Positions 26,046-64,000 of a stretch of DNA of 64,000 nucleotides are shown piece after piece. Source of the DNA: Ascidia mentula. Lineage: Eukaryota; Chordata; Ascidiacea; Phlebobranchia; Ascidiidae. Made by a program: the position numbers and the translations under genes. Location: the NCBI GenBank assembly GCA_947561715.1, contig OX387199.1, forward strand, positions 20,403,001 through 20,467,000. Direction: 5' to 3'. Positions within the stretch are counted from its first letter, which is position 1. Each line of letters opens with the position of its first letter. The notes beneath the pieces were generated by a model. That model did no database searches and was not told the origin of the DNA. It saw only the letters and a list, made by a program, of their open reading frames with translations.

Positions 26046-27023
26046 AAAACGGGGCCGATAATCTGTACGAAATGCAATTTGAAGAGATAGTTACCAAAGC
26101 CAAAGCAGTCGGAGTAAACGGCACTGGCCAATGCGAGCTGAGAAGCCAGTTGGTCAACCGAATCCAAGGGCCACAAGAAGACGGTAGCACTTTTGTGTAT
26201 GCCATAGAAGCTTTAGCCGCCCGTGCGTACCCGAGGGCAGCCGACGCCATGCGCCGTGATCTCGACGTACTCCAGCGACCTGGACCACCGGGGTTGCGCC
26301 CAAGTAAGTCTACAAGCGCTTGCTACAACTGTGGGGTACGTGGCCATATGGCAAGAAATTGCTGTCGACCACGCGGCGGCGATAGGACGATTAAATCTAC
26401 ACCTTTTAGACCATCAAGTCAACAATCCCCATCGCAGGTGGTGAACACCGCCCAGCAAAGGCCGACACCAAGTAAGTCGCGGGTTACCTTGCAAGGAATA
26501 GCCAAGACGAACAAACAAAATCGCTACCTGAACATATTGTTGGGAGATCGGATCGTGTGCGCTCTAGTAGACACTGGCGCGACAATAAGCGTATTAAACC
26601 GTCGCGTATATAAGTCACTTAAAGCTACACCTAATAGGGTGTTACAATCCTTACCGTTGGAAACAGAGTATGTCAACGCTTCCGGAGAAGTTATTTTGAT
26701 GGACGGCGCTGTCGATGTTGACGTAAGGATTTGCGGGTTAAGGTGGCTGTACACAGAATGCGTAATGCGTGAACGTACGTAAATCGCATCCGAAAACGGA
26801 CCGACAGATTACGCACGTAAACGGACCGAATTTTCGTTCCGAACCATCCGTTAAAAGGCACTGTACACAGAATCCGTTATCGTACGAATTTACGCTTGGT
26901 TGCGCATGTCAACAAAGGACCGATGACTGCTGCTGCTGCGCACATGTACAATACAAATTGCAGATCAGTGATTTTCCTTTGGTATCCTTGCTCAAAGATG
27001 GCGGATACTTAGATCAACAATAA

Positions 27024-27345
27024 TGGCAAACGTTGAAACTGCAACTCAAGTTGTTAAGGCTACTGTGGTTTTACATAACTGGTTGCAGAGCAAAAATTTG
27101 AAGAAGTCTTTGGAAACTAGGGAATACAGTGCATTGGTGCCTATGAAGTAACTGTTGAACTTGTTGAGGGAGCTTGACGACAAGAGGAAACTGTATGTCT
27201 TCCCAACATCAAAGATTTCACCACTATTCATTGTATGCAAGGCAAATAAGAGACTTGCTGAAGGACTACTTCAGCAGCAGCCAGGGGGAAGTTGCTTGGC
27301 ATTACAACATTTTTTTCCCTGTTTCACAGGGAACAACCCTTGAGT
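27024..27345 (+). pseudogene. Harbinger transposase, C-terminal remnant
   Basis: [14 protein letters not shown] matches the VVKA..VLHN helix at the end of Harbinger DDE transposases. RDLLKDYFSS and GEVAWHYN further on match the usual R..L..YF....G.V.WQ tail in another frame. The catalytic DDE region is absent and the remnant has a stop and a frameshift. Confidence 0.7.
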
Positions 27346-27636
27346 AAGACCGACTGCTTTTCTTTTTTATGTTTATTGTTTTTTTTTGTAATAAAATAAC
27401 AGTTAATGCATACTGAATGTTGGCATATATAACAATGCAAATTGAAGAGGTATTTGAAGGAAATAAAAAACACTACAGATGAATAGAACAGAACACTGGC
27501 AGTAAAATACTAAAGAAAGTGAACAGTGAAATGAAAAGAGCAGTACCAATACTTGTGTTTCAAGTAAATTGCAGTCAAACATGTGAAAAAGAACTGAAAG
27601 CAGTTTGATATTTGCATATATACAATGAATACAAAG

Positions 27637-28701
27637 CTATACAATCTCCGCAGTTTCCTGCATCTCAACTTTGTCATAATCTGCCAGTATTACAGTAATG
27701 GCTACAAAAGCTTTATGCATGTTGTTTGGCAATGCATCTAATCTTTGTTCAATAATTTTGGCATAATGGAATGCTGAGGTTTTTTTAGTTGTTCAGAAAT
27801 CAAAGCATTGGTTGTGTGCAAAGTTTCACCCAATTGTTCCCATGCAAAATCATTGCAATTAAATGATATAAATTATTTTACATATCCTCTTGCTAGGTTT
27901 AAATAATATTACCGATAGATCCACACCCGCTGCCTTCCTCCTTCTCTTTTTACCAACTGAACTGGGTGAACGACCAGTTAATGCTTGTGGATTTTGTTTT
28001 TTTGGGGTTTCTAAACTTTCAGGTGTACCAATTTCATGTACTTCGGGCTGTTTACCTGAAGTATCAGGACTTATGCCTAAAATTACAGGACCTTGTCCTA
28101 ACAGTTTATTAACATGCTGTTGATTGTATTACCAATGTCTGCTGCCTCACAAAAAGCAGAGTAAACTTGTTGTTCTGCTGTCAAAGTTGGGTCCTCTTGC
28201 AAAATGTGAGACTCAGTCCTAAACATGTAGTAAGTTCAGATACAACCACAGAAGTTTAATAACAATATTGCATGCGATGCTTTGTATAATTGTCCAAAAA
28301 CATCATTGATGAAAAGTATGGCCAGGTTGGTGTAGGTATGTAACCAGATCCACTTGGTCTCTGCTTCTTTCTTTTTGCGTACATACGTATCTCTTAGGTT
28401 TCTCCATTTTTCTTTGGCACTTTTATCTTTCAAAGGCAGGCGAAAACATTATCTTTGCTTGGACAAATTGTACAACAATAAAATTTCGAAGTTTTTGTTA
28501 CCTGTTATACCACACGCTTTGCCAACAGCATCCCATGCATTTTTGAAAATATATTTTGACACAATGTTTTGTATTTTTTATATCATATAAAGCTGGTCTT
28601 TCACGGACAAGTTCAATCAGTTTTTTTTTCTTTACTATATTCCATTTTAGGGGCCTACCAGTTGTTATGCCATTGTAACAGCTATTATTACTGATAATCA
28701 C
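27637..28701 (-). pseudogene. MADF-domain accessory protein of the Harbinger element
   Basis: The minus strand reads LIELVRERPALYD, then (one frame over) KNAWDAVGKACGIT, and after a probable short intron DKSAKEKWRNLRDTYVRKKK: the three helices of a MADF (Myb/SANT-like) DNA-binding domain. A C-terminal block (AFHYAKIIEQRLDALP...FVAITVIL) before the stop at 27637-27639 is reminiscent of a BESS tail. In this superfamily the partner protein binds DNA and brings in the transposase. At least one frameshift is visible, so it is probably inactive. Confidence 0.7.
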
Positions 28702-31700
28702 TGCCTCAAAAAGATATTTATCCCAAAAAAGGGTAAAAAATCAACTGTTGATCTTAAAAGTACCATTTTAACCTTTCAAGTATGCATAAATATTACAAAA
28801 ACCCACTTCATTAAAGATGGGTATATTTTCACAGCAACAAAATCGCATGCGTACGTGCGTAAAAATCAAACATGTTTGATCGCGTCGGATGGCCTTGCGT
28901 TAACGCATGGTTCGCAAGTTTCGGACGTTACGCATTCTGTGTAAAGACCCCGTCGGAAGGCGACGGACCGAATTTTTACGCGCGTATGCGCTTACGGACG
29001 AAAACGGACCGAAACGCATCCTGTGTACAGCCACCTTTACGCTTATCGCAAAGAATGTGCGTGACACGCTACATTCAAGAAGAATGCATTTTAGGCCGGG
29101 ACTTCATTCAGAGCAACGGTTGCCAACTCTGTTACAAAAAAATGTTGTTCTACGTTGGATCGGGTTCCGCGGCTCTACTTTCTTCCCCCTTCCACTGTAA
29201 ACGCACATATGTACGTCTAAAAGAAGATGTGACGATCCCACCATTTTCAGAGGTATGCGTTGTTGGTTCATTCATAAGGAATCCCCCAGAAAATATCCCT
29301 AGTGCGATGCAAGTTCTTGTTGAGAAAAACCTTGACTTCACACTCCGAAATAGTTTACTCGGCGGAACTTATGTAACTATAACTTCGCAAGCAACTGTTC
29401 CAGTATTTTTAGCAAATTTGTCCGACGACCCGGTGAGGTTGCTTGCAGATTCGCATGTTGCTCGCCTGACTCCGATACTAACCTCCGGCAACGTCACATG
29501 CTCGTCTGACGACAACTGTGTTGCAGTGGAATCCTTTCCATCGCCAGGTTGTGATTGCGAAGACAGAGGATGTGAATATATTGCTTCGATCACGACAGCA
29601 GCGCAACGAACCGCAAAGGCCGGCCGCTCACGAGCGTGTAGGATTATAGATTCCGATTCAATTAATGAGGGACTGACGTCCGCTCAGATAAAACGTGTCG
29701 AAGAATTAATTTCTAGGAAACAAGCCGCGTTTTGCACAGAGGCATGGGATCTCGGTCGGACCTACTTGGCCGAACACGCGATAGATACAGGTGATCATGC
29801 ACCGGTCCGACAACCGCCACGACGGATGGCCCCAGGAAACAAAAGGAAAGTGGAGGAAATTGTCGGGGAGATGGAGCAACAGGGTTTGGTGCGCCCTTTG
29901 CAATCGCCGTGGTCAAGTCCCGTCGTTCTGGTTCGGAAAAAGTCTGGTGAGACGAGGTTTTGTGTGGATTACCGGCAAATAAACATTCTTACGAAAAAGT
30001 GGAGCTACCCCATACCAAGGGTGGAAGATAGTTTAGACGAAATGGCTCATGCGAAGTTTTTCTCAACTCTTGATCTTAAGTCAGCCTATTGGCAGATTCC
30101 ATTGCGGAATGACTGCCGAGAGAAAACCGCTTTTTCTTCGCACATGGGACTTTACGAGTTTAATGTTATGCCCATGGGACTGTGCAATGTCGCGGCTAGT
30201 TTTCAGAGATTAAATGCGGCTAGTTCTAAACGGGATGGAATGGCGCAGCGCTTTGGCATACCTCGACGATATTATAGTGTTTGCCACTACCTTTGAAGAG
30301 CACATGGATCGTTTAAGTAGAGTACTCGATCGGTTAGTAGAAGCGGGTCTCACGTTAAAACCGACCAAATGCAATTTGTTTCAATCGCAAGTAAGCTTTT
30401 TGGGGCATGTGATTTCCGATAAAGGAGTGCGACCCGGCAAAATAGACGCTGTAAGTTCCTGGCCTACCCCGAGGAGTGTTAAACTCATTCGACAATTCGT
30501 TGGCCTTACTTTATCGCAGATTTATCAAAGATTATGCTCGGGTGGCTGGTCCGTTACACAAGCTTACAGAAAAGGGTCGAACATTCAAATGGGGGGAAGA
30601 GCAACAACATGCATTCGACGAACTAAGGCGACGCCTTACACAAGCACTTATTCTACAGCACCCGGACCTTTCAGCGACTTTTGCATTAGATACCAACGCT
30701 TCCAATAACGCGGTGGGATGTGTGTTGTCCCAGGTAGTAGATGGCAAAGAACATGTGATCGCCTATGGCAGAAAATCGCTTTCGAAAACTGAGCGCAATT
30801 ATTCTACTACGCGAAAATAATTGTTAGCTGTAGTATACGCCGTTAAATTGTATAGGTGTTATTTGCTTGGCAGGCATTTTCTACTGCGGACTGACCATTC
30901 GTCACTCCGGTGGTTGTGGAAGTCGCGGGAGATGTATGGCCAGTGTGCGCGTTGGTTTGAACGCCTCGCAGAGTACGACTTCACACTGATTCATCGCCCG
31001 GGGAAAAAACACGGCAACGCCGATGCACTAAGCCGCTTGACCGGTGAAGAAGAAGAAGCGATGCCGTTCCCGGTCAACACTTCCTACGGCACAAACAGTC
31101 GTCGCAACGGTACAGAAGAAGTTTATTCCTTAGACTTGCGTCGCTCCATTGGACTGTCATACGAGGAAATAAGTAAAGCCCAACACGACGACGCCGAAAT
31201 TTCCCCGGCTTTTAGGTGGTTAAACCTTGGCAAGAGACCACCTTACCGAACTGTTAGGTCTGCCTCGACGATGACTAAACACCTTTGGGGGCAATTCGGG
31301 CGGTTAATCGTTCAAAACAACTTGTTGTATCAAACGAGTGACTCCTTACATCAACCGGGCGCGTGTGTGTACCGCCTTATCACTCCACAGACTACCAGAG
31401 AAACGATTATGTCCGTTTTGCACGACGCACCACTTGGCGGTGGCCACCATGGGATGGCAAAAACCTGTCCGAAGATCGAAGAAAGACACTTCTGGCCCGG
31501 TTGGAGGGCCGACGTTGAGGCTTATGTCCGTTCCTGTCGCCACTGCCAAAGAAGTAAGAAGTTTACAGCAAGGCCCCGTGCTTCGTTGGTTCCTTCCGGG
31601 GAGATGCAACCAATGGAGCGGGTCGAGGTGGACATAATGGGGCCACTTCCGGCGACCTCCAGTGGTAATCAATACGTATTGGTTGCATGCGACATATTCA

Positions 31701-32658
31701 CTACATACGTGCGCGCATGGCCACTCAGGACGCAAAGGGCAGAAGACCTAGCCGGGACAATGTTTCATCGTTGGTTTACGGTACACGGCGTCCCGGACGT
31801 AATCCATTCCGATCAAGGTGCAAACTTTGAATCTATTTTTTTTAAAGAGCTAGCACGGTTGATGGGCTGCCGAAAGACCCGGACGACCACGTATCATCCT
31901 CAAGGAAACGGTGCGTGCGAACGCAACAACCAAACAATACTCTCCATGATACGGAATTACGTACAGCGAGATAAACGGTGCTGGGATGAGGCGCTGTCGG
32001 CGGTGGTCGCGTGTCCATGAAAGTACAGGTGTGTCACCACATTATTTGTTAAATGGCCACGCTCTACGACTCCCAGCAGATTTATTCAGCGCGATCCATT
32101 CCCGGCACCACTGGAAGGTCTACGCGCCAGGCTCCAGTTAGCTGAAGAGGTGGCCCGTGAGACGTTGCGGAAACAAAGACGGCGCATGGCGTCGCAGTAC
32201 GACCGACATAAGAGGGGCAAACCGCTGAATGTGGGTGATTTTGTTCTCTTAACAGACCCCGCGGTGAAGCCAGGGATGGCGAGGAAATTCCACCTTCCGT
32301 TCAAAGGCCCGTACAAAGTGGTGGACATCAAGTCAGCCGTGACGTATGAGATCGACGACGAAGAAGGACACCGAAAAGTCGTCCATTATAATCGCCTCAG
32401 ACAAACTCAAGGTGGAGGGGCGGACAAGACGGAGGTGCGACCAGCCGTGGAAGAGGAAGTCCGGACATTGCCACCTACGGGAGACCCCACGACACAGGTG
32501 GTGACCTGGACCAATATCACCGAAAACGAAGAAAATGCGCAGGCACCGAACTCTCGTGATGACAACGGAATTGCCAGTCGCCTACGCGTAAATCGCCGTC
32601 CCACTCAGCGCTATTTCCCATAAGTCTGCACGGGAGTGCCTCGACATAGAGGGGGGAG

Positions 32659-36023: not shown

Positions 36024-36383
36024 CAGCATAGTAGTAAAGGGTGACAGAGTAGAGAACGGGGTGACTTCCTTCCTGTCTCTCTGCTACTCTTTCCGGTTAG
36101 GGAGACAGGAAAGAGCACTGTTTCCGTTCTCTTTCGTATGCATTTCAAAGGGGGACATGTGTCAGGGAGATACTCACAGTTACTCATGAGCCTCCCGGTC
36201 TTGATTGGGAGTAAAATAAGATTCTCCTATTGTTTGTCTCTTTCCGGTGTCGCAATCGTGATTCTATTTTTATCTTGAGCGTGTGAACTTTGTTTGAGAT
36301 GTCCGCGCCAAGGAATTCGAGGTCACACGCAGTTCACTGTATGGTCGTGTGGCGTTTGTGAAACTATCTGGTGAATTATTTCC

Positions 36384-37770
36384 TGAATGCAACCGGTTCC
36401 CAATGCCTTCACCATGACGTCACGCGAGATGCGACGAGATCAACAAACAATTGTTTGTCGATCAGCTGTTAATTGTATCCGCTAGCGAAAATTCAGCGTG
36501 CCTCGTTTTCAGAGCTCTTGAAAAGCATAAACATACAAAGACTTGGTACATCGTGCGTTCGTATTGCCCCTAGCTTGACCCTTTCCAATAAGTTGGATTT
36601 GCAAAGTTGGGAGTATTTAGGGTCAAGGTCTTCGGTGACCTGAATACCCAACATTGACCTGATTGCGTGTGGATTGTTTTCGAGCATGAAGCACTGACAT
36701 GTTCGTGTAGGTAGTTGCTATCTTTATCACAAGACCGATGTGTCGGATTTTTTGTCGATCGGCATGTTTTGTCGGGCCACTTGTTCGACCTCTGTTTAAA
36801 TCGACCCAGCAAACGTTACCTTAAAGTTTCTGGACTTTGCAGTCACATTACAGTTGCAGTAATTACAATGGCGAACACGTCTCTTTTTGCTACGAAAGCA
36901 AAACGCTTTTGGGCTTGGGCAACAAACCTCAACGTCTTGGTTAGATTTGACGTTTAATCGTTCAAGACTGTTGGATAACAGATCCTTGTAATATAATGAG
37001 CGATGGGTTTCGAATTTGAATCAATCGTGACGAGTGACATATCATAAAATGTGCCAATCGCAAACCTCCTGTCTGTAAATTCGATTGGTGGGCCACAAGA
37101 TCTTAGGTGGCTGAGGTCGTGCATGGATTGTTAACATATATGGTATTGGTGTGTTTGTGTAGGTAAACGTTACTGAATGCAACCGATTCCCAATGCCTTC
37201 ACTATGACATCACGCGAGATGCCTTCACGATGACGTCACGCGAGCTGCGACGAGATCAACAAACAATTGTTTGTCGATCAGCTGTTAATTGTATCCGCTA
37301 GAGAAAATTCAGCGTGCCTCGTTTTCAGAGCTCCTGAAAAGCATAAACATACAAACACTTGGTACATCGTGCGTTCGTATTGCCCCTCGCTTGACCCTTT
37401 CCAATAAGTTGGATTTGCAAAGTTGGGAGTATTTAGGGTCAAGGTCTTCGGTGACCTGAATACCCAACATTGACCTGATTGCGTGTGGATTGTTTTCGAG
37501 CATGGAGCACTGACATGTTCGAGTAGGTAGTTGCTATCTTTATCACAAGACCGATGTGTCGGATTTTTTGTCGATCGGCATGTTTTGTCGGGCCACTTGT
37601 TCGACCTCTGTTTAAATCGACCCAGCAAACGTTACCTTAAAGTTTTTGGACTTTGCAGTCAAATTACAGTTGCAGTGATTACAATGGCGAACACGTCTCT
37701 CTTTGCTACGAAAGCAAAACGCTTTTGAGCTTGGACAACAAACCTCTACGTCTTGGTTAGATTTGACGTT
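36384..37770. repeat. Direct tandem duplication in the left arm
   Basis: About 575 bp at 36384-36958 recur at 37174-37770 (offset 790, then 816 after a 26-bp internal duplication around 37210). Only parts are present in the right arm. Confidence 0.7.
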
Positions 37771-38479
37771 TGATCGTGCAAGACTCCTTTCTGTAAATTC
37801 GATTGGTGGGCCACAAGATCATAGGTGGCTGGGGTCGCACATGGATTGTTAACATATAGTATTGCTGTGTTTGAGTAGGTAAACGATCTGTGTATCACAG
37901 GTCGAATGGTGTATCGCGACGGACGCTGTCTGAATGGTTTTTAATGACATTACGCTGGTCACTTAGTTAATTTTCTGTCGATTGCCATGTTTTGTCGGTC
38001 ACATGTTTCCTTTTTGCAACTTTCGGGACCAAATACTTATGTAACGATCCAGGGATGGTATACGATCGACAAGAAAATGTTCGATTCGGGTCGAGTTTTC
38101 GCAAAGTAGTTTGCGTAATTGTCTTGCGTTACTGAAATATATTTTCTAAAGACATAACAAAATCAGACGCCATTGATCAGTTATAGTAAAACGACGTGTT
38201 GGCCACCCTAAGGTGTAACATACATGCGTAAACTGATGATGTCCAGATCTAGGCGGAATAACCAAGCGGTTTGGCATTGCAAAGTACACGAATTATCGCT
38301 TACATTGCCTGCTATTGGTCCTAATTATGTATCTTGTAACCTTATCCATGACATCAGCAAAACGAGAGGATTGAAGTAATGCGTGGAGTTTTATGTGTCA
38401 TTATTAAAGCTGTGTCTGTGACAATTGATATTCCACCTATGTTGCGTTTCTTGGTCGTAAATGTTTAGGAATGCGCTTA

Positions 38480-38940
38480 AAGTGCAAGTAACACGGTCAT
38501 GGCAACTTTGCGTAAAACTAATGGTTTATCCGCAATAAACATATTTCGAAAGTATTTCGGTGCTACGACCAAAAATCGTAAACCTGCGGCGACCAAAAAT
38601 TGTAAATCTTTTGCGTTGTAGCGAAATTGACGCCACGTAAGGCGCTCGTGTCAAAAAATGCATTGTTTACATAGGAGAAGGCACCTTATATTGCAGATAT
38701 CGAATAGTTTCAAACATAGAAGAATCCATAAATTATGTTACGTCAAAGGTCGGGACAAGGTTTTATATCATACAAAAATATGTCCCTGTGACGTCACAAA
38801 TTCATTGCTTATCTGCCCCTAATTATGGGAAGACGAAAGGGTATAGCAGCAACGACACTAATCTGTACTTCGATAAGACGGAGATGATGCGTTTCTTTGC
38901 TCAGTGACATTACATGACGTAATTTTGTGTGTGATGTCAC
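38480..38940 (+). repeat. Interspersed repeat R1, left arm copy
   Basis: Similar to 60790-61270 and, inverted, to 19550-20010 and 46260-46740. Confidence 0.65.
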
Positions 38941-39275
38941 AACTTTAACCTTATTTTTGTGTTGGGCAAGTGCCTGGGATACTCTAGCTGAGGCTAATCG
39001 CGCACGCGGTTCACCATTAATTTAACGTCATGGTCGTGTAGTGTCGTTGTTGGTCCATCTGGTGAATTGTTTCCTAATGCCTTCACGATGACATCACGGG
39101 AGAGGCGACGAGATCAACAACAGTTGTGTTTCGATCAGTTGTTATTTGTATCCGCGGCGAAAATTTTGCATGCCTCGTTTTGAGAGTTCACTCGTTGGTT
39201 GAAAGGCACATACATACAAAGACTTTGGGTACATCGTGCGTTCTTATTTCCCCTAGCATGACTTGTCAAAGATAT

Positions 39276-39412
39276 GCTAACATCAAAATACTTCATGCCA
39301 CTAACATCAAAATGCTACATGTCACTAACATCGAAATGCTACATGTCACTAACATCGAAATGCTGTATGGCACTAAAATCAAAATGTTACATGTCACGAA
39401 CATCAAAGTGCG
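39276..39412 (+). repeat. 24-bp tandem repeat, left arm
   Basis: About five and a half units of ACATCAAAATGCTACATGTC plus ACTA. The 147-codon open frame across it (39126-39569) has the repeated peptide NIEMLHVT. The inverted equivalent is at 45791-45927. Confidence 0.75.
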
Positions 39413-39569
39413 CAAGTGCGGCTTAACGCACCTTCTGTTTTGTATTTGCCCGCTTCCGTTTCAGAACACCAATATTCCATACAATGGTAAAATACAACGA
39501 ACAAAAACCTGGTGGTCTACGAAGCGGCACGTAAGTTCAACGAAACGCGATGTGATTAAACTATGCTAG

Positions 39570-40201
39570 TGTTACGGAATTATTTCGGCAGCTTTGCAAT
39601 TCGGCGGTCAGATGTTTTTGGGTGGCGATGTTATCCCCCAATTAACCCTTCTACCTAATTCGGTACTTTTCACAAAGCTGCCTCCCTAATTCTGATACTG
39701 CCCAGAACCCTGCAATAACGGCTCACCACAAAGCCAAAGTAACCCAGGCTGATTTAACTTATTGGACGTCGTGTTAAACTAAAACGATTAAAAACAATAC
39801 AAAACGCCAGTAATCAAGTTCCCAATAACTCACAACACTGTAACAGAGATGCTAACCACGCGACGCCCAGAAGAAGACTCGCCCGTTTTAGGGAAATCGT
39901 TCGTTACATGCAATCGCCAACCAATCAGGATGCGCCTTGCCGACACGCGGCACATCCGGGGCATACAAAAATAAACGGAGCGTGAAATAATAGGAAAGGG
40001 GAGACGAATGTAATAAACTAGTGTGGTGAAAGTGAAGTGAGAGAAGCGATATACGTGCGTAAAACAATATAATAAATAAGTGGTTACAACGAAAGAAAAC
40101 AGTGATATTACAAGGTGCCAGCAAGAAAGGTGAAAACAATGAAATAGATACAATGACTAACCAAAGTGAAAGGTGACGTGAAGGAAAGAAAATTCGTAAC
40201 A
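39570..40201 (-). repeat. LTR of Gypsy 2 (3' LTR in element orientation)
   Basis: 632 bp, TG...CA ends on the element strand, preceded on that strand by the polypurine tract. Nearly identical to 42411-43042. Confidence 0.93.
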
Positions 40202-40245
40202 CTCCCCCCAACCCAAGAATTGTCCTACTCCTGTTGGACATTGGT

Positions 40246-42300
40246 CTACACGTGTGTCTCCGACGAGAATCGAACTGGCCGGCGCCGGGTCCGTGTAGAC
40301 CTTCTGCATCCGCCCGAATTATCCGGTGAACTCGATACCTCTCCATTGTCCACTCGGGTTGTATTTGGCCTAAATACATACACCAACGTAGGTTGTTGAT
40401 CTTCAGCCTGCGGAGGTTCCGCCGTTTGCTCAGCGGGCATTGGGAATGTATCTGTGGTCGGTTTCAGCCGATTGAAATGGACAGTCTGTTGTTTACCAGT
40501 CCCATCTTCAATGACATAGTTCACAGGCCCGCGTACTTCGACCACTCGGTACGGACCTTTGTAGGGATACTGCAATTTCTTGCACCGACCTACGGGAACG
40601 ACCGGGTTCGTTAACAGCACATAGTCTCCCATCGAGTATGGCTTTCCCCGTTGTCGCAAGTTGTAGCGGTCTTCCATACGCTTGCGCTGTGTCATGAGAC
40701 TTTCCCTGACAATTTCTTCGGCCAGCTCTAGGCCGTCGCGTAACTGGTCGATCTCCACTCCGTAAGATCGTCTTGAATCTTCTCGGAGGGATCCCAATAA
40801 ATCTGCCGGAAGGCGCAACGGTCGGCCGGTCAGAAGGGTGTGCGGAGCTTCTCCCGTTGCTTCATGGGCGCTTGCGTTGTAAGCCGCGACTACTCCTGGC
40901 AACGCCTCGTCCCATCGTCGTTCGTCTTTCTCGGTAAACGCGGGGACGGTGACATCGTCGACGACGTACACCTCGGAAGGTTGTGGCAACGGCACCGGAG
41001 AATGCGAGAGTGGCACGCTTGCATCCCCTGCTGTTAGCACGTTGGCTTCGTAGCAGATCTGGCATTTGTTTGACTGGAGGAAATCTAATCCTAGAATAAG
41101 GTCGTGTGTAAGATTGTCCACAATGTAAAAACTCGCGTGAGTCATCAATCCTCCCACTCGGAGGGGAAGCTCGACGCAGCCTTTTACCGCCAACTGGTGT
41201 CCGCCAGCCCCGACCAAGTTCTTCTTTGTGCACCTCTTTACCCGGTCGTGATGCTCGGCGCTTAAGGAATGCCACTTTAGGGTATTAATCAAGCAGACAC
41301 TGGACCCGGTGTCCAACAACGCACACATCCTCGTCCGGTCGACCAGTAGGTTGACAAACCGCAACGGCGCTGCGGGTGTAGCGGGTTTTTGTACCGACTT
41401 TGGCGCCAAACATTTGGGTGCATCTCGAGTTATACGTTTTTGGTCGAAGTGACATTTTATCTCCGGTGCGCGACGAATCGATCTGGGAAACGCAGGTGTA
41501 CATGGTATGTTTTGACGTCTCGTGTCGACGTCCTTTGTGCGCATACCCGTATGCGGGCAGTCGCGCCTCATATGGCCCAGTCCACCGCAACCATAGCAAG
41601 TCCGTGCTCGCACGTTGTTGTATTGTGGTCGTTCGCGCTTTATGGCATCCACTTGAGCTTGTAACGCCGCTAAGGTGTCCTCGAGTTGTGTGTTCTTTTC
41701 CTTGGACCGTTTCTCCATGTCTTCTAACTTTTTTAGCACTAATTCCATCTCTGATGCTCTTGTGTTCACTGCAGCGACTTGGACAAAGCTCGGTGTTTGC
41801 GTATTGACAACGACTTGAGCTGCGGCTCTGAATGATCGCTCATACTTCATGGTGATCGGGATAGTGTCCGCGAGGCGCCGGTCTTGCAAGCCTTGCAGTA
41901 AGGTAATGTACAGAACCTCATTTTTAAGGGCCGCGTCAGCGGAGTTGCTGTAGGCACCATAGCCCAGTGTCTGTAGGGCGTAAACAAATTCACGTGCTGA
42001 TTCGCCAGGTAATTGCACGCGCCTTATCAGCTCGGCGCGTTGACGCTCTGCGTGTTGACCAGTAGCCCTTTGGCGCAATGCGCGTTCTTTGAGGTCTTTG
42101 TAGGAAACCTCGAACAAGTTTGCGTCTTTTTCTTGTATTGTCCATTTCAAGTCGTTGTCAATGCTTGCCAGGAACAGGTGTCGTTTCATTTCTTCTGAGG
42201 CCTCGACGCTCATACAATATGACTCAAATACATTAAAATACTGTCCTAGGTCAGCTCCCGGCCGTAAAGGCGGAGGTTGCATTAAAACATTAAAAGCCAT
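40246..42300 (-). CDS. Gypsy 2 Gag-protease-integrase C-terminus fusion (684 aa)
   Basis: A single uninterrupted frame. Residues 1-230 are Gag, with capsid-like helices (GESAREFVYALQTLGYGAY) and a coiled coil near 185-220. A CCHC knuckle (CYGCGGLGHMRRDC) lies at about 235-250. The aspartic protease runs over about 320-430 (ALLDTGSSVCLI; LILGLDFLQ). Near residue 455 (about 40935) the frame passes from the sequence after protease (DDVTVPAF) directly into the region after the integrase core (RRWDEALPGVVAAYN), then the GPY/F module (YPYKGPYRVVEV). Compared with Gypsy 1, about 2.7 kb holding RT, RNase H and the integrase zinc finger and core is absent, and the junction is in frame. It could assemble and mature particles but cannot copy or integrate itself; mobility would need a helper. 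Confidence 0.88.
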   Translation of the reverse strand: MAFNVLMQPPPLRPGADLGQYFNVFESYCMSVEASEEMKRHLFLASIDNDLKWTIQEKDANLFEVSYKDLKERALRQRATGQHAERQRAELIRRVQLPGESAREFVYALQTLGYGAYSNSADAALKNEVLYITLLQGLQDRRLADTIPITMKYERSFRAAAQVVVNTQTPSFVQVAAVNTRASEMELVLKKLEDMEKRSKEKNTQLEDTLAALQAQVDAIKRERPQYNNVRARTCYGCGGLGHMRRDCPHTGMRTKDVDTRRQNIPCTPAFPRSIRRAPEIKCHFDQKRITRDAPKCLAPKSVQKPATPAAPLRFVNLLVDRTRMCALLDTGSSVCLINTLKWHSLSAEHHDRVKRCTKKNLVGAGGHQLAVKGCVELPLRVGGLMTHASFYIVDNLTHDLILGLDFLQSNKCQICYEANVLTAGDASVPLSHSPVPLPQPSEVYVVDDVTVPAFTEKDERRWDEALPGVVAAYNASAHEATGEAPHTLLTGRPLRLPADLLGSLREDSRRSYGVEIDQLRDGLELAEEIVRESLMTQRKRMEDRYNLRQRGKPYSMGDYVLLTNPVVPVGRCKKLQYPYKGPYRVVEVRGPVNYVIEDGTGKQQTVHFNRLKPTTDTFPMPAEQTAEPPQAEDQQPTLVYVFRPNTTRVDNGEVSSSPDNSGGCRRSTRTRRRPVRFSSETHV

Positions 42301-42410
42301 TGTTAAGAAAAACCAACCTTTAAAATATCATAAAACCAAAGTACACGTGGGGAGTCTTCCCAGTAAAACCAGCCGGGTGTGGTGACAGGGTCCTGGCGTG
42401 CTCGCCAAGT

Positions 42411-43042
42411 TGTTACGGAATTATTTCGGCAGCTTTGCAATTCGGCGGTCAGATGTTTTTGGGTGGCGATGTTATCCCCCAATTAACCCTTCTACCTAAT
42501 TCGGTACTTTTCACAAAGCTGCCTCCCTAATTCTGATACTGCCCAGAACCCTGCAATAACGGCTCACCACAAAGCCAAAGTAACCCAGGCTGATTTAACT
42601 TATTGGACGTCGTGTTAAACTAAAACGATTAAAAACAATACAAAACGCCAGTAATCAAGTTCCCAATAACTCACAACACTGTAACAGAGATGCTAACCAC
42701 GCGACGCCCAGAAGAAGACTCGCCCGTTTTAGGGAAATCGTTCGTTACATGCAATCGCCAACCAATCAGGATGCGCCTTGCCGACACGCGGCACATCCGG
42801 GGCATACAAAAATAAACGGAGCGTGAAATAATAGGAAAGGGGAGACGAATGTAATAAACTAGTGTGGTGAAAGTGAAGTGAGAGAAGCGATATACGTGCG
42901 TAAAACAATATAATAAATAAGTGGTTACAACGAAAGAAAACAGTGATATTACAAGGTGCCAGCAAGAGAGGTGAAAACAATGAAATAGATACAATGACTA
43001 ACCAAAGTGAAAGGTGACGTGAAGGAAAGAAAATTCGTAACA
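42411..43042 (-). repeat. LTR of Gypsy 2 (5' LTR in element orientation)
   Basis: 632 bp partner LTR. An inverted CCAAT box (ATTGG, minus strand) lies inside. The candidate primer-binding site follows after 2 nt. Confidence 0.93.
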
Positions 43043-44017
43043 CTAGGCAATTCGCTTGTTTTGCAGATGTCATAGATAGGCAAGATACAAAGTTAGGACA
43101 AATCGCGGGCAATGCACGCGATTAATCGTGGTACTTTTTCATCTTGATTCATGACATAACCTATGTGTTTGATTCATGACATAACCTATTTACACTTTGC
43201 CACAAGTTTCATTTCCTACGAATAGAAATATGTCATTGAAATTGCATCATGTTCGTCGTTATTTTTGCTTGCAGTAGAGGTCATGACGATGCTGAGTTCT
43301 GACGTTGATTCCTGTGAGAATGTAAACCTCCCCATGCGCATTTTTACATGTCCGCCTAAAGGGTTAAACCTTATTTTGCCAAGTCACGCGCTGTCGCGTT
43401 CAATTCTGTCGAACTGAAAATTGTCTTGTAAATTGAGAGTGATGCAACAGGCATCTACCAAATGTCTTAGCAACGCCAAACCGCCTGGTTAGTCACCCTG
43501 GATCTGGATTCATCATTAAAAGAATGTACGTTACATATCACGGTTTGACAATACGTTGATCAAGATTGATCAACCGATCGTTTAACTGGAAGATCGCGTC
43601 TGATTTTGTTGTGATTTTCTCGAATATATTTCAGTATCGTAAGGCGACTAACCGCAAACTACTTTGCGAATCTCGACACAAATCGAACGTTTTCCTGACG
43701 ATCGTATTCGCTGCTATGTTGACCATCCCTGGTACATATCGTTACATGGCCAGAAAGTCGCAAAAAAGGAAACAAGTGGCCCATAAAACATGGCTATAGA
43801 CGGGAAATCAGCCCAGACAACGTGAACAGGACATGACCAGCGTGATGTCATTAAAATTATGAATCCATTCAGACAGCATCCCGCCGCGATGTATCCTATC
43901 GGTCGTGTGATGCTAATAGCAAATTAACCGACAGTTCTCTATATGCCCGAGAACAATCCACAACCTGAGTCGCCGAAGACCTTGACCCTGAATACATTCA
44001 GCATTACAAATCCATCG

Positions 44018-44658
44018 TACAAGCAAGGGTCAAGCGAGGCCAGTAAGAACGTACGACTAACCGAAACGCCGATTCTGGCGAGAGACGTAAGGATGTACAA
44101 AAGTCTTTGTAGTATGTTCCTTTCTTTAGGTCTTTAGGCGCCCATATTGCAGTAATTAAAAACATGCTGCTAATTGTTGTCAGCAAGTTTAAACGCCTAT
44201 AACTATATTTCTATAGACGCTAGACGAAACCCTACTGCGCGCTTAAACGTTCGCAAACTGAAACGCTCGCATTCAAGCCCCACCTGTGATTTACTACAAC
44301 GATACTTCTCAGTTTGAAATCGTAAATTTGTATTCGGATGATTTGCGTGGTAATGATTTATTTGCGGAGCGATTTGTATCGGATTTGTGAGTACACGGAC
44401 ATGATTTATTTCTGGGTGTTTTGTGTCTGACAAGGGGCATTTTCTCACTGTATTTTTTTTTTTTATTCCACGCGGAAAAGGCGTCAAAACAACAAACATC
44501 GGCACAAAATCCCGTGACAAGGCGCAAAATTTTTTCGCGGCAGCAAACAAGTCAATTTAGTGTCGTCGTGGTGTGGGATTAATATGTTGCAGCTTGCTTT
44601 ACATATTTTCAGGCTTTGATAGCTGACGCTAATCGCGCACGCGGTTCACCAAAATCGG
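44018..44658. other. Loop (unpaired centre) of the palindromic element
   Basis: 641 bp between the arms. No gene recognised. An oligo-T run is at about 44453-44463. GCTAATCGCGCACGCGGTTC near 44628 is also found in each arm (38992 and 46190). Confidence 0.6.
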
Positions 44659-47600
44659 CGATGGATTTGCAATGCTGAATGTATTCAGGGTCAAGGTCTT
44701 CGGCGACTCAGGTTGCGTGTGGATTGTTCTCGGGCATATAGAGAACTGTCGGTTAATTTGCTATCAGCATCACACGACCGATAGGATACATCGCGGCGGG
44801 ATGCTGTCTGAATGGATTCATAATTTTAATGACATCACGCTGGTCATGTCCTGTTCAAGCTGTCTGGGCTGATTTCCCGTCTATCGCCATGTTTTATAGG
44901 CCACTTGTTTCCTTTTTTGCGACTTTCTGGCCATGTAACGATATGTACCAGGGATGGTCAACATAGCAGCGAATACGATCGTCAGGAAAACGTTCGATTT
45001 GTGTCGAGATTCGCAAAGTAGTTTGCGGTTAGTCGCCTTACGATACTGAAATATATTCGAGAAAATCACAACAAAATCAGACGCGATCTTCCAGTTCAAC
45101 GATCGGTTGATCAATCTTGATCAACGTATTGTCAAACCGTGATATGTAACGTACATTCTTTTAATGATGAATCCAGATCCAGGGTGACTAACCAGGCGGT
45201 TTGGCGTTGCTAAGACATTTGGTAGATGCCTGTTGCATCACCCTCAATTTACAAGACAATTTTCAGTTCGACAGAATTGAACGCGACAGCGCGTGACTTG
45301 GCAAAATAAGGTTTAACCCTTTAGGCGGACATGTAAAAATGCGCATGGGGAGGTTTACATTCTCACAGGAATCAACGTCAGAACTCAGCATCGTCATGAC
45401 CTCTACTGCAAGCAAAAATAACGACGAACATGATGCAATTTCAATGACATATTTCTATTCGTAGGAAATGAAACTTGTGGCAAAGTGTAAATAGGTTATG
45501 TCATGAATCAAATACATAGGTTATGTCATGAATCAAGATGAAAAAGTACCACGATTAATCGCGTGCATTGCCCGCGATTTGTCCTAACTTTGTATCTTGC
45601 CTATCTATGACATCTGCAAAACAAGCGAATTGCCTAGCATAGTTTAATCACATCGCGTTTCGTTGAACTTACGTGCCGCTTCGTAGACCACCAGGTTTTT
45701 GTTCGTTGTATTTTACCATTGTATGGAATATTGGTGTTCTGAAACGGAAGCGGGCAAATACAAAACAGAAGGTGCGTTAAGCCGCATTTGCGCACTTTGA
45801 TGTTCGTGACATGTAACATTTTGATTTTTGTGCCATACAGCATTTCGATGTTAGTGACATGTAGCATTTCGATGTTAGTGACATGTAGCATTTTGATGTT
45901 AGTGGCATGAAGTATTTTGATGTTAGCATATCTTTGACAAGTCATGCTAGGGGAAATAAGAACGCACGATGTACCCAAAGTCTTTGTATGTATGTGCCTT
46001 TCAACCAACGAGTGAACTCTCAAAACGAGGCATGCAAAATTTTCGCCGCGGATACAAATAACAACTGATCGAAACACAACTGTTGTTGATCTCGTCGCCT
46101 CTCCCGTGATGTCATCGTGAAGGCATTAGGAAACAATTCACCAGATGGACCAACAACGACACTACACGACCATGACGTTAAATTAATGGTGAACCGCGTG
46201 CGCGATTAGCCTCAGCTAGAGTATCAGGCACTTGCCCAACACAAAAATAAGGTTAAAGTTGTGACATCACACACAAAATTACGTCATGTAATGCCACTGA
46301 GCAAAGAAACGCATCATCTCCGTCTTATCGAAGTACAGACTAGTGTCGTTGCTGCTATACCCTTTCGTCTTCCCATAATTAGGGGCAGATAAGCAATGAA
46401 TTTGTGACGTCACAGGGACATATTTTTGTATGATGTAAAACCTTGTCCCGACCTTTGACGTAACATAATTTATGGATTCTTCTATGTTTGAAACTATTCG
46501 ATATCTGCAATATAAGGTGCCTTCTCCTATGTAAACAATGCATTTTTTGACACGAGCGCCTTACGTGGCGTCAATTTCGATACAACGCAAAAGGTTTACA
46601 ATTTTTGGTCGCCGCAGGTTTACGATTTTTGGTCGTAGCACCGAAATACTTTGGAAGTATGTTTATTGCGGATAAACCATTAGTTTTACGCAAAGTTGCC
46701 ATGACCGTGTTACTTGCACTTAAAGCGCATTCCTAAACATTTACGACCAAGAAACGCAACATAGGTGGAATATCAATTGTCACAGACACAGCTTTAATAA
46801 TGACACATAAAACTCCACGCATTACTTCAATCCTCTCGTTTTGCTGATGTCATGGATAAGGTTACAAGATACATAATTAGGACCAATAGCAGGCAATGTA
46901 AGCGATAATTCGTGTACTTTGCAATGCCAAACCGCTTGGTTATTCCGCCTAGATCTGGACATCATCAGTTTACGCATGTATGTTACACCTTAGGGTGGCC
47001 AACACGTCGTTTTACTATAACTGATCAATGGCGTCTGATTTTGTTTTGTCTTTAGAAAATATATTTCAGTAACGCAAGACAATTACGCAAACTACTTTGC
47101 GAAAACTCGACCCGAATCGAACATTTTCTTGTCGATCGTATACCATCCCTGGATTGTTACATAAGTATTTGGTCCCGAAAGTTGCAAAAAGGAAACATGT
47201 GACCGACAAAACATGGCAATCGACAGAAAATTAACTAAGTGACCAGCGTAATGTCATTAAAAACCATTCAGACAGCGTCCGTCGCGATACACCATTCGAC
47301 CTGTGATACACAGATCATTTACCTACTCAAACACAGCAATACTATATGTTAACAATCCATGTGCGACCTCAGCCACCTATGATCTTGTGGCCCACCAATC
47401 GAATTTACAGACAGGAGTCTTGCACGATTAAACGTCAAATCTAACCAAGACGAAGAGGTTTGTTGTCCAAGCTCAAAAGCGTTTTGCTTTCGTAGCAAAG
47501 AGAGACGTGTTCGCCACTGTATTCACTGCATACTGTAATGTGACTGTAAAGTCCAAAAACTTTAACGTGTCGTTTGCTGGGTCGATTCAAACAGAGGTCG

Positions 47601-48542
47601 CGGCAAATCAAGTAAATGATTTTGGAAAAGATGCACGTGCAAATATACAGCAAAAATGACTTGCACGACATCTGAACATTGGATAGGCATGATGTTCCGA
47701 AAAGCAACGTTTCACGGTGCGCTTCACGCGACCGAAACATTGTTCGACCAGTCACCCTGGAATAGGTGGTACCACAGCTAGTGCGATGTCATTAAAATGA
47801 TGACATCAATCATACTGCCTCAGGGTTAGGACACATTGGACTGCGAGAAAACACCACGAAGTAAGCGATCTTTGCACCTAAAGTGGCAAGATAATCAAAG
47901 CTGGACATCACTTTAACGAGTACATGTTACACATGACGGGTGGCAAAAAAGCGTCACAAGTGAACCGACAAAACATGCCGATCGACAGAAAATCCGACCA
48001 GTCAACTTAAACAGGATATGTCTAGCGTGATGTCATTAAAATTATGAATCCATGTTGAGGGCAGCCCTCCGCGATATACACATCGATCTTGTGATAGAGA
48101 TAGCAACTACCTGCACGAACATGTCAGTGCTCCATGCTCGAAAACAATCCACACGCAATCAGGTCAATGTTGGGTATTCAGGTCACCGAAGAATAATTCA
48201 CCAGATAGTTTCACAAACGCCACACGACCACACAGTGAACTGCGTGTGACCTCGAATTCCTTGGCGCGGACATCTCAAACAAAGTTCACACGCTCAAGAT
48301 AAAAATAGAATCACGATTGCGACACCGGAAAGAGACAAACAATAGGAGAATCTTATTTTACTCCCAATCAAGACCGGAAGGCTCATGAGTAACTGTGAGT
48401 ATCTCCCTGACACATGTCCCCCTTTGAAATGCATACGAAAGAGAACGGAAAGAGTACTCTTTCCTGTCTCCCTAACCGGAAAGAGTAGCAGAGAGACAGG
48501 AAGGAAGTCTCCCCGTTCTCTACTCTGTCACCCTTTACTACT
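44659..48542. repeat. Right arm of the palindromic element
   Basis: Inverse of the left arm: 44659-45633 pairs with 43047-44017, 45640-47160 with 38040-39566, and 48150-48542 with 36030-36400. 47600-48150 is rearranged relative to the left arm, with about 350 bp not found there. Open frames such as 45634-46077 mirror the left arm and are not recognised as genes. Confidence 0.8.
46260..46740 (-). repeat. Interspersed repeat R1, right arm copy
   Basis: Mirror of 38480-38940, also similar to the receptor-intron copies at 19.6 and 60.8 kb. Confidence 0.65.
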
Positions 48543-48548
48543 CAGCAT

Positions 48549-49690: not shown

Positions 49691-50379
49691 GTGATTTAAA
49701 GTTAGAGGCTCTTCAACATATGCAGATATGTTCCCAGCAAACATGGTGGCCTAATGGTTTTAATGTTCTCGTTTGTGGCACACGCTTTTATTGCAACTAC
49801 CGATTATCTGCTTTTACAGATGATTGCAACAGAAGCAAATCAACTTTTCTCAAAACCAAACTTGTCCACATTCTGCTGCCCACAATAATATTTGAAGTCG
49901 GGCCTACATTGATAGCACATGTGATAATAAATAACGGTGACAAGTGTTTGTCAAAATGTTGCAGAACAGACGTGTTTGCGCGCTTTTAGGAATATACTGC
50001 AATATTCCACAAAACGTTTTCTGCTTGTATTTTATTAACCCAAGTACTTATTATGAGTCTCCATTTAAATACCTGATAAATATATCATATTTTTGCAAAG
50101 TTGTAGAAATGATGTAGTTTATAGCAACCACTTTGCATAAACAGAATTAGTCCATACACACAGGGTTTTTTTACTTCCCAATGCTTTGCAAGTTTTATCA
50201 TATAGATGACGTAATGAAAAAACGCTGGAATAATGTTCACTCAAAATACAAACACCAGCAAGGTCTTCTTCCAAATGGAAATTGTGAGGTTATACACAAA
50301 TGGAATCCAAGCTGCGCCATAGGCATCCTATTTCTGTGAATACAGTATTATGTTCTTATTGATTACTTCCCGTACGTCC
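49691..50379. other. Intergenic, inverted copy of 9236-9842
   Basis: No gene recognised; part of the inverted duplication. Confidence 0.6.
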
Positions 50380-50753
50380 CTGGTGGTATGTTAACACTCC
50401 CTGGTGGTATGTTAACACTCTCTGGTGGTTTGTTAACACTCTCTGGTGGTATGTTAACACTTCCTGGTGGTATGTTAACACTCCCTGGTGGTATGTTAAC
50501 ACTCTCTGGTGGTTTGTTAACACTCCCTGGTGGTATGTTAACACTCTCTGGTGGTTTGTTAACACTCCCTGGTGGTATGTTAACACTCCCTGGTGGTATG
50601 TTAACACTCCCTGGTGGTATGTTAACACTCCCTGGTGGTATGTTGACACTCTCTGGTGGTATGTTAACACTCTCTGGTGGTATGTTAACACTCCCTGGTG
50701 GTATGTTAACACTCTCTGGTGGTATTGTTAACACTCTCTGGTGGTTTGTTAAC
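50380..50753. repeat. 21-bp minisatellite, 18 units
   Basis: Eighteen consecutive units of CTGGTGGTATGTTAACACT plus CC/CT, the last shortened and one (about 50722) 22 bp long. Units vary mainly at two positions (A/T in GGT[A/T]TG; CC/CT/TC at the end). Because 21 is a multiple of 3, open frames run through it on both strands (MLTLPGG and SVNIPPG peptides); these are not genes. The other arm has only two worn units at 8990-9034. Confidence 0.95.
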
Positions 50754-53700
50754 CGGATGTTCATTTTTCTGCCAATCTTTCTACGTTGAGTTCTGCGGAT
50801 AAAAGCAGGAATTGCTTATAAAGAATGCATGTGTTTTGCGTTATCAGCTTATTAACATAGAACTGCTATGAAGCTTTAAATGCAACCTTCTTTGATCTCA
50901 TCTTCTGTAACATGACCAATGTGTCGACTTTGTCTTCTGAGTCCGGTAGTTAACTGCAGACAAAATCGACTTCTACGGATTTCTGAATATCATGATAAAT
51001 AATTCTCTCTATATGTAAGCAAGTTTGTATCTAGAAGGTTGCATACGTTGACCACATAATGTTTTGTTAGGTATGAGCACTTTCCAACACATTGGTAGCA
51101 AATTGGATGATTTCGTGTGAATTAAGATTGTATTCGAAGATTAAACAACAGTGGACATTGGGAATGGAGTAAATGACTCTGAATAGCCAAAGCTAAAATG
51201 CCTATCATCACAAACACCAGTTTTGTTGGTGTTGATGTTGTTAAATTTTCCTTTCTGAAATTGCAGATCATGAATGTTGGGTTGGTGGTCTTTTCGTGCA
51301 GAAACCTATGCCGTTCTCACCAGACAAAATTTGTTGTGGAGCTGGCTGGTTTGTGTTTTGGTTTAAGTTAAGAGAGATACTTTGAACTACTAGGTTGAGA
51401 ACCTTTATTCAAACAGGCAACGTGTACAATGGCATCTGTTCATCTATCCAAACCATTTGTGAGTTTTAATGGTTTATACAGAGAGAACAGAATTGCTGTG
51501 ATACATTATCAACTTTTTTTGCTAATAGTTGTTCATTTGCTATTAGTTGATTTGTTTATGGTCATTTGTTTGTTTGAATGTCTGCATGCTTGTCTCATTT
51601 TATTGCTGTTGATTTTCAGGTTGTAGTTCTGTGTGTTTGTTTGTATTTGTGGCTTTTTATTCCCAGTAGTGACTGTTTTTTTTTTTGTTTTAGTAGACTG
51701 GTTATAGGGCTAAATAAAAAAAAACCTTTTCAAATTTTTTTAACACTGTGTTGATTCAAGCATTTTTTGCATTAATTAATAGAGATCAGTAGTTGCTATA
51801 CATAGCCATCAGAAAATGTGAAACTGACTGGCCATGGCATGGGTGTAATTTAGAACTCTTCGCCATTTGTTTATTACATACATGTTGTTGGAAGTCACAG
51901 TTAAGATTGGTGAATCCCAACCTTTTGTGGTCATGTACCCCTGTGTTAAATTTGACGGAAGCTTTTCTAACAAACTAAATTGTATATTTGTTAAAATACC
52001 AGAATCACAAATATATTTGTAATTCAACAAAAAAGTAAACAGAAACAAACATAATTGCCGCATTTTTTGTGTGCTTTTGTTCGATTACAGACCGCCCAAA
52101 ATCCATCCCACATCCTCCTTTGGGGATCATGAGCAACATACAAATTTTAAAGTGTTCCCATTTTTGCAAAAAATATTTAGGTCATCGATAAATTTTCTTC
52201 TTCTTAGGTCATTCGTTATTTTCTTGTTCTTTAATGAGTCATGGTGGCATGCTTTAAACTTCCCTGTCATGCAGATATTTCCTAAAGCAACTCATTTGGC
52301 ACACGAAACTAATAAATTTAAATATGTCCATTGTACTTGAGACCGAAGACAAAAAAGGTTGGAGACAATATTTTTGTTTTGTTTCAGGTGACCAATTGTA
52401 GGCAAGAAGTAAATTTTTGTTATACTTTCGCAGCTTAAATAGTAGCAAATATGTTTGCTGGCACGCTAATTTTTTTCCAAATCAACAACACCTAAAAATA
52501 CAAATGCGTTTTACCTGTGGGAAAGTTCCCATTAGTGGGAAATTGTATGGTGTTTGTGGGTAATTAGTGGGCACCAAGTGTACGAAGGTAGTTGTTATGT
52601 TCTGTATCCACCTAAAAATGTCTAAAGTGTATTACAGATATAGCGCAAATGCAATAATTAAATTCTGCGGTAAAATTTAAACACAAGTGGGAAAAAAGGA
52701 TTCCCTTCACAAAAAAATGGGGAAATGAGAGAAAAAAGGTTAAGAACAACCACATTATAATGCTGATCGCCCAGATGAACCAAATCTTTATTTTATTTGA
52801 GAGTGGGCCAATTAGTGTACCTGGTGGAACCATTTTAGTGCCAAAAAACATTGCGAAATGGACAGGACTAATTTGTTCTTTGAAAGTGGCTTCCGACCAT
52901 AATAAATAAACAAAGAAACACATATTACCAAATATTCCAAAACGTGATTCATATGCGATTGCCAAAGTTACCAGCAAAACGCTAATTTACAATCAACGAT
53001 TTTCCTTTGTCATTCTGTTTTGTAATGTGACTAAAAATGTGACTTAAACGAGTGAACAACACCGCTGTATTGTTTGCCAAACTTCGGAGAACTAATAACA
53101 TAACTTTTTTGAACATAGGAGGCGATTGAACAATACCGCCTGTGAGTCATATAGGCGTATTTTATGACGTGTTGATATTTTTTGACTCACTGTGCAATGG
53201 ACAAACATGATGGCGTATGACACAAATGTACCGCCTACATGTAAAGCCAGACAAGATCAAAGTATGGGTGACAAGGTTCTTAAATCAAAACGTTACTTAT
53301 TTAACCATGTTAGTCAGCACAAGAGTCAATAATGTTCACATTGCTTATTTTAGGACAAAGTGCGCTATTTCATCAACGTATTCCTTAAACAAGCAACAAG
53401 AGTTGCTAACAGGCAGCCACGCTTGGCCGAAACAGACGGAAGTCCAACAAATATCGATACATCAACAATTCTGTCTCAGAAATTAGTCCACTGTGGATTG
53501 ATGTTTCGCATCTTGAATGGCGTTTGGACAGAAACCGTAGCAAAACTGCAAAAAGAATGAACAAAAAGTTATGAACAAAATGATGATTTCATTATTTATA
53601 AAGGAAGGTGATATGGTGTGTGTAGTTCATGTTCTATGTGTCATCGGGTAAATCCTCGCGTCGGTCTTGAGGTTTTGCAGCATTAACAAGATGTCAGAAG

Positions 53701-63789: not shown

Positions 63790-64000
63790 CTACAATAACA
63801 AATTTGTTTATAGATGCCATACTTTGTCCATAAGCAGGCAATTAAATCAGTTCATTTTATTATCATAACCATTAATATAAACAACAAAGTTCACATGACT
63901 AAAATTATATTTAACTCAAAAACGTTTCTTTTATTTCGTTTTCACTGCAATAGGAAGGATGACGTCAGTAGAAACACCGATCCAATGGCGTTAAAAGAAA

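Follow-up and report, generated by a model that had tools for sequence, protein, structure and literature searches.

We analyzed a 64,000-nucleotide stretch of the genome of the ascidian Ascidia mentula (the window), which contains a giant palindromic element that we call W. Searching the window directly for the sequence of W confirmed its span, 36030-48542, to the base. The left end (AGTAGTAAAGGG, at 36030) and the right end (CCCTTTACTACT, at 48531-48542) each occur just once on the + strand of the window, and the hexamer CAGCAT lies directly outside both of them. The original prediction had placed the boundaries and the hexamer at exactly these positions. It had also described near-complete mirror-image arms of about 4.5 and 3.9 kb around a 641-bp loop, and the arms are there: we found 25 inverted pairs of at least 40 nucleotides (nt), and the main ones cover 1306 nt (99% identity), 920 nt (99%), 592 nt (100%), and 351 nt (99%). 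Once a nested long terminal repeat (LTR) element is removed, the left arm is about 4.5 kb; the right arm is 3.88 kb. Because the LTR element is present in the left arm only, the palindrome proper is about 9 kb. The inverted pairs also reveal an extra segment in the left arm, which is tandemly duplicated with a shift of 816 bp (36569-36854 appears again at 37385-37670). As explained below, W belongs to a real, multi-copy family of non-autonomous, palindromic Polintons (Mavericks).

Table 1. Features of W and its target site, in window coordinates
Feature	Position	Strand	Basis
Left target site duplication, CAGCAT	36024..36029		Direct search; empty site
Left terminal repeat, 351 bp; 96.5-97.4% identical to ends of five gene-bearing Polintons	36030..36380	+	
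Left arm, about 4.5 kb without nested LTR element	36030..44017	+	Inverted pairs
Nested LTR retroelement, outside the palindrome	39570..43042	-	TG..CA ends, duplication CTAG, LTRs of about 632 bp
Loop, 641 bp	44018..44658		Inverted-arm search
Segment X; single in W, innermost arm sequence on both sides in other copies	44018..44315	+	
Polinton remnant: 3' end of protease gene, 24 codons and stop (44316-44390), then downstream intergenic DNA	44316..44527	+	
121-bp piece, found in opposite orientation in right arm of E3 (98%)	44531..44651	+	
Right arm, 3884 bp, inner part of left type	44659..48542	-	
Piece of another dispersed repeat, inside the arm; 82-84% identical to five loci read	46237..46737		
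Right terminal repeat, 351 bp; 98.0-98.9% identical to ends of five gene-bearing Polintons	48192..48542	-	
Right target site duplication, CAGCAT	48543..48548		Direct search

W was originally described as free of genes. We searched the arms and the loop for genes by comparing open reading frames (ORFs) of at least 80 amino acids to the Pfam library. There are seven such ORFs, two of which mirror each other, so we scanned six. None of the six has a mobility domain, or any domain of the gene set of an autonomous Polinton: the matches were weak (E = 0.026 or worse), and none was near the cut-off. The one clear coding ORF inside W is that of the nested LTR element. So W does lack a recognizable mobility gene, but it is not entirely without gene sequence, as a Polinton protease gene has left its 3' end in the loop (24 codons, and nothing else of that gene set).

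The target site can also be reconstructed. When we joined the flanks of W in a script at a single CAGCAT, an uninterrupted 103-amino-acid frame ran across the insertion site. We then searched the genome with 300 bp of the joined site. At least 42 places were reported, of which 37 match the site in full, two match 297 of its bases, and three match part of it (40 of 205 candidates were scored, so the counts are lower bounds). We read two of the matching places and each has one CAGCAT, so the empty site of W is real. The frame had been labeled as Penelope GIY-YIG. Its continuity across the site stands, but the label rested on a motif, and a Pfam scan of the joined 103-amino-acid frame gave no match. 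Separately, the insertion-site sequence occurs at least 15 times (14 whole, 1 partial), in one orientation and at 95-98% identity, within 0.67 Mb of the contig that includes the window (C52:19836965-20502239). This looks like a young cluster of tandem or segmental duplications.

Palindromic and gene-bearing copies in the same genome

The mitochondrial COX1 of this genome points to an ascidian close to Phallusia: sites expected to be conserved glycines are Gly under the ascidian code but Ser under the invertebrate code, and the protein is 89% identical to that of Phallusia and at most 79% identical to the next one listed. We searched the genome (195.8 Mb, 79 contigs) with the first 301 bp of W and found at least 45 matches (40 of 99 candidates were scored). 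From these, we read eleven elements with facing ends, including W; two further pairs on contig C70 were left out. Six of the eleven have arms of the W type (W, E2, E3, E5, E9, and E10), in some cases with further inserts. The other five (E4, E6, E7, E8, and E11) lack these arms, bear genes, and are 14.8-20.5 kb long. What they have in common with W is mainly the outer 350 bp or so and a stretch in the center, along with some short pieces. Two more palindromic copies, E12 and E13 on contig C2, are truncated and have lost their right ends.

The gene-bearing copies are Polintons. In E8, ORFs match the adenovirus-type protease, the rve integrase (with a chromodomain), and the Adeno_IVa2/A32 packaging ATPase above the curated cut-offs. 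E8 also has a PolB match (E = 3.5e-5) and a match to a double jelly-roll (DJR) capsid domain, both of them below the cut-off. The capsid ORF has 563 homologues at E ≤ 0.001 among 8000 scored, and the nearest, from Phallusia, is 52% identical. With PolB and the major capsid protein below the cut-off, E8 has matches to the full set of polymerase, integrase, protease, ATPase, and capsid. It has a terminal repeat of about 565 bp. E4, E11, and E6 are classified as gene-bearing because their DNA is 96-99% identical to that of E8 or of each other over the one half that was compared, and E7 is classified by its integrase (the integrase matches of E6 and E7 are 97 and 96%).

Eight of the nine elements tested are flanked by an exact 6-bp duplication (W, E2, E3, E4, E5, E8, E9, and E11). 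The ninth, E10, has its duplication (GTCTTC) displaced outward by 20 bp. Thus, the genome search proposed with the original prediction did turn up other copies with 6-bp duplications, along with gene-bearing Polintons that have the same ends. Palindromes are prone to assembly errors, and one might ask if W is an artefact of assembly. This is extremely improbable: six copies have different flanks, with a duplication that is exact in five of them and displaced in the sixth, the inner arms of E3 differ from each other by about 15%, and the LTR element is inserted in just one arm of W.

Descent from Polintons

The ends of W, E2, E3, E5, and E9 are about 96.5-99.4% identical to those of the five gene-bearing copies, and the ends of E10 are 92-96% identical to them. 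The center is related as well: 44316-44527 of W matches the middle part of the gene-bearing copies at about 89% identity. This part of the loop reads EIVNLYSDDLRGNDLFAERFVSDL-stop, and the end of the protease ORF of E8 reads EIVNLYSNDLRGNDMLVERFVSDL-stop. Because W keeps the last 24 codons and the stop of a Polinton protease gene, we consider its descent from a Polinton to be settled. E5, E3, and E2 have a longer center than W does. In E5, three matched pieces of the center, over a span of about 590 bp, keep the Polinton order: first the end of the protease gene, then intergenic DNA, and last the 3' end of the convergent ORF. The second half of this span is missing from W, whose loop closes instead with the 121-bp piece (Table 1), which we read as a putative scar from rebuilding of the right arm. 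W has three marks of a derivative: the ends, internal sequence in common with a gene-bearing element, and the 6-bp duplication. Overall, gene-bearing Polintons of the same genome have the 350-bp ends, the 6-bp duplications, and the central sequence of W.

The arms are another matter. We searched the gene-bearing copies with the right arm of W, its loop, and the inner part of its left arm, and most of the arm sequence had no match there. The exceptions are 116 bp of the end that is repeated inside E8, E4, and E11, a 45-bp piece (80% identity), and the right ends of E6 and E7, whose match continues to about 445 bp of the left arm of W (90%). The right arm is internally repetitive, with five repeat pairs at 68-85% identity, and 500 bp of it comes from a dispersed repeat (46237-46737); among the first eight matches for each of the five related loci, no clear inverted ends were seen. 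Segments K and X of the arms (K is 44720-45630) recur elsewhere in the genome as more divergent fragments. In IMG/VR, an exact 28-base pattern from the end had 0 matches.

Arms without a counterpart, and with internal repeats as in Galileo elements, are what we would see if an independent foldback-type element had captured Polinton ends by recombination. We consider this very unlikely, and it is largely refuted, because the center is also derived from Polintons, in the same order over about 590 bp and near the middle of both kinds of elements. The duplications of 6 bp also speak against it. The new foldback family that was originally offered as an option is not needed.

Ends and center also differ in how closely they match the gene-bearing copies. 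We compared W, E2, E3, and E5 to E4, E6, E8, and E11, using the longest matched piece only. In all 16 of the 16 comparisons (which are not independent), the ends were closer (94-99%) than the center (79-89%; Fisher test, P = 1.2e-3 to 1.2e-7). The ends may be kept matched to those of the helper, either by selection or by exchange.

How the palindrome was probably built

We think that these are very probably non-autonomous Polintons whose palindrome arose in two steps, which move in trans, and whose arms overwrite each other. In the first step, a non-coding arm would have replaced the polymerase half of a Polinton. In the second step, this arm would have been copied, by template switching, as a mirror image over the integrase and protease half. 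The junctions and two degraded one-armed loci point to both steps.

Both arms join the center at the same point of the arm. On the side of the convergent gene, the arm joins at CAGTTTG, which is present in that ORF in E8. On the protease side, the copy of the arm also ends with CAGTTTG, which is absent from that place in the protease ORF of E8. This arm is therefore probably a copy of the one on the convergent-gene side.

The first one-armed locus (C70:4479500-4489499) has an integrase, capsid, and protease region that contains deletions and is 76-84% identical to that of E8; a further piece of 28 bp is 96% identical. This region is followed by the end of the convergent gene, the same junction, and segments X and K of the arm; beyond X and K, there was no match to the arm. 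The second locus (C72:17534800-17542300) has the same junction and about 250 bp of the arm, and then capsid and integrase sequence (76-90%). An ATPase and a right end of the same family lie directly before the arm, so this place has been rearranged, perhaps in a tandem array. Both loci could be examples of the predicted half-way form. In the wider region (C72:17534800-17577000), there are three similar remnants with integrase and arm, about 18-20 kb apart, which suggests a tandem array of one-armed Polinton copies.

Once formed, the palindrome would have spread in trans. The retroviral-type integrase of the gene-bearing partners would integrate it, and their protein-primed polymerase probably replicates it. 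(The original prediction of a non-autonomous, inverted-repeat derivative that is moved by a Polinton-like integrase is supported on this account, with the role of the integrase inferred.) That the palindrome itself has been moving is shown by copies with the same arm types and center junctions at different sites with different duplications. If, instead, gene-bearing Polintons had inserted and each had later turned into a palindrome at its own site, then we would not expect unlinked sites to agree in junctions and arm types, or the center junctions that E2, E3, and E5 have in common. Formation in place is highly improbable, even though one footprint in E10 (see below) was necessarily made at or after insertion.

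Copying from arm to arm

Within segment K, the left type and the right type are about 90% alike in both E3 and E5. Between these two elements, which are at different loci, the left types are 97.5% alike and the right types are 99.3% alike. Both arms of E3 and E5 must therefore go back to one ancestor that was already a palindrome. We used the 68 sites that separate the left type from the right type in E3 and E5 to classify the arms of other copies. The right inner arm of W is of the left type at 67 of the 68 sites, just like its left arm. The right arm of E2 is a mosaic: at the first 26 sites, 22 are right-type, 2 are left-type, and 2 are neither, while 41 of the last 42 are left-type. These mosaics show that, in some copies, sequence is copied between the arms of one element, which keeps or restores the mirror image. 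We also counted the bases that are private to W. In segments K, M, T, and N, respectively, 4, 4, 1, and 0 private bases are present in both arms, and 8, 12, 4, and 0 are in one arm only. We conclude that the arms of W were copied from each other and that they have gained differences since.

E10 has a different kind of footprint. The 20 bp past its right end repeat, in exact inverse orientation, the 20 bp that precede its left end, and the duplication comes after them. In the eight other elements tested, the inverse flank is 0 or 1 bp. Most simply, the left arm of E10 once served as the template for a new copy of the right end, and the copying overran; a palindromic target without a duplication is a less simple reading. 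Beyond the 20 bp, we found no long mirror image in the flanks of E10.

The copying may take place in the chromosome or in an episome. A related proposal is that palindromes are made, and re-made, by strand snap-back during episomal, protein-primed replication, as in defective genomes, so that each insertion is a newly folded molecule. The ends and the polymerase type of Polintons fit with this route, and so does the inner right arm of W, which looks rebuilt from the left arm with a 121-bp relic at the turn. But the left type and the right type of K are distinct, and E3 and E5 have both of them at different loci, which implies that the arms of these two were inherited and not refolded, so we view this route as rather unlikely. 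We are more doubtful still that the palindromes act as satellites of an endogenous, virus-like Polinton, or as its defective-interfering form. In that scenario, self-complementary DNA would be replicated from its ends by the helper's protein-primed polymerase and would compete for the helper's proteins, and arm copying would occur within the cycle. If it were true, and if RNA polymerase read through the palindrome, hairpin RNA could act against the ends that are common to W and the helper.

Several observations weigh against the two-step origin with movement in trans and arm overwriting. For most of the arm sequence, no match was found in the gene-bearing copies. E6 and E7 have no 6-bp duplication, and both of their flanks are common to the two; probably, they are one insertion inside a duplicated segment. 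Both one-armed loci have decayed and been rearranged, and they may be recombinants of palindromes with gene-bearing copies instead of intermediates. In W, private bases in one arm only are commoner than those in both arms, so homogenization is occasional, not continuous. And the two ends of E10 are 5% apart, so the copying event there is old and the footprint is not fresh.

Nested LTR element and other features of the window

The two LTRs of the nested element (Table 1) have just 1 mismatch in 634 aligned positions, and because they are nearly identical, the insertion is recent. The element has gag, protease, and integrase-tail domains, in one stop-to-stop frame of 693 amino acids in which a gag zinc knuckle and the protease are fused to the C-terminal part of integrase. 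The domain scan gave no match to reverse transcriptase. Elsewhere in the window, 26048-32623 is a longer, degenerate element of the Ty3/gypsy type (from reading the frames by eye), which is possibly kin to the nested element. A frame at 50363-50815 is built of a PPGSVNI/PPESVN minisatellite repeat. Exon-like frames at 16424-16948, 22712-23191, and 63048-63851 have cysteine repeats like those of LDL-receptor-A and a fragment of a seven-helix receptor (these names are from reading the translations).

Comparison with known systems

Gene-less Polinton entries may exist in Repbase. In the open literature (Repbase and the subscription literature were outside our search), the phrases nonautonomous or non-autonomous Polinton or Maverick were not found, and none of the open-literature titles listed was about gene-less or palindromic Polintons. 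Polintons have been given a central place in the evolution of eukaryotic DNA viruses (accessible part of PMC6431247), and the accessible parts of PMC3573991, PMC6431247, and PMC12220804 do not treat gene-less Polintons. Expansion of the inverted repeats of Polintons was reported earlier, with a passing mention in the accessible part of PMC3573991, so the growth of Polinton repeats is not new as such. In the family of W, a gene-less palindromic form, gene-bearing partners, possible half-way forms, and scars of arm conversion occur together in one genome, and the birth and upkeep of giant palindromes can be read from them. These copies are also short natural substrates (ends of about 350 bp plus a center) for asking what Polintons require in cis.

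The family of W is like other Polintons in its 6-bp target duplication, its AG...CT ends, about 350 bp of the terminal repeat, and its central sequence, which includes the 3' ends of two convergent genes, and there are gene-bearing kin in the same genome. It differs in having no genes and in that mirror-image, non-coding arms of about 4 kb have taken the place of both halves, instead of a terminal repeat of about 565 bp. By description (not by sequence), its long and internally repetitive inverted arms are like those of the Foldback element of Drosophila. In adenoviruses, defective DNAs become palindromes by strand snap-back. These are also mirror-image genomes with viral ends and a protein-primed replicon, whereas the family of W is integrated in the host genome and inherited at many loci.

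By analogy, the closest described process is the extension of arms in Galileo, an element of the P superfamily in Drosophila. In Galileo, arms are longest in the copies that lack genes, and it has been proposed that TIR1 is copied over TIR2 (accessible part of PMC3573991). The family of W resembles Galileo both in the long arms of its gene-less copies and in the proposed extension of an arm by copying to the other side. It is not a member of that superfamily, which has 7-bp duplications and a P-type transposase: W has a 6-bp duplication and its gene-bearing partner has an rve integrase. The longest arm of Galileo is 1.26 kb, compared to about 4 kb in W (accessible part of PMC3573991).

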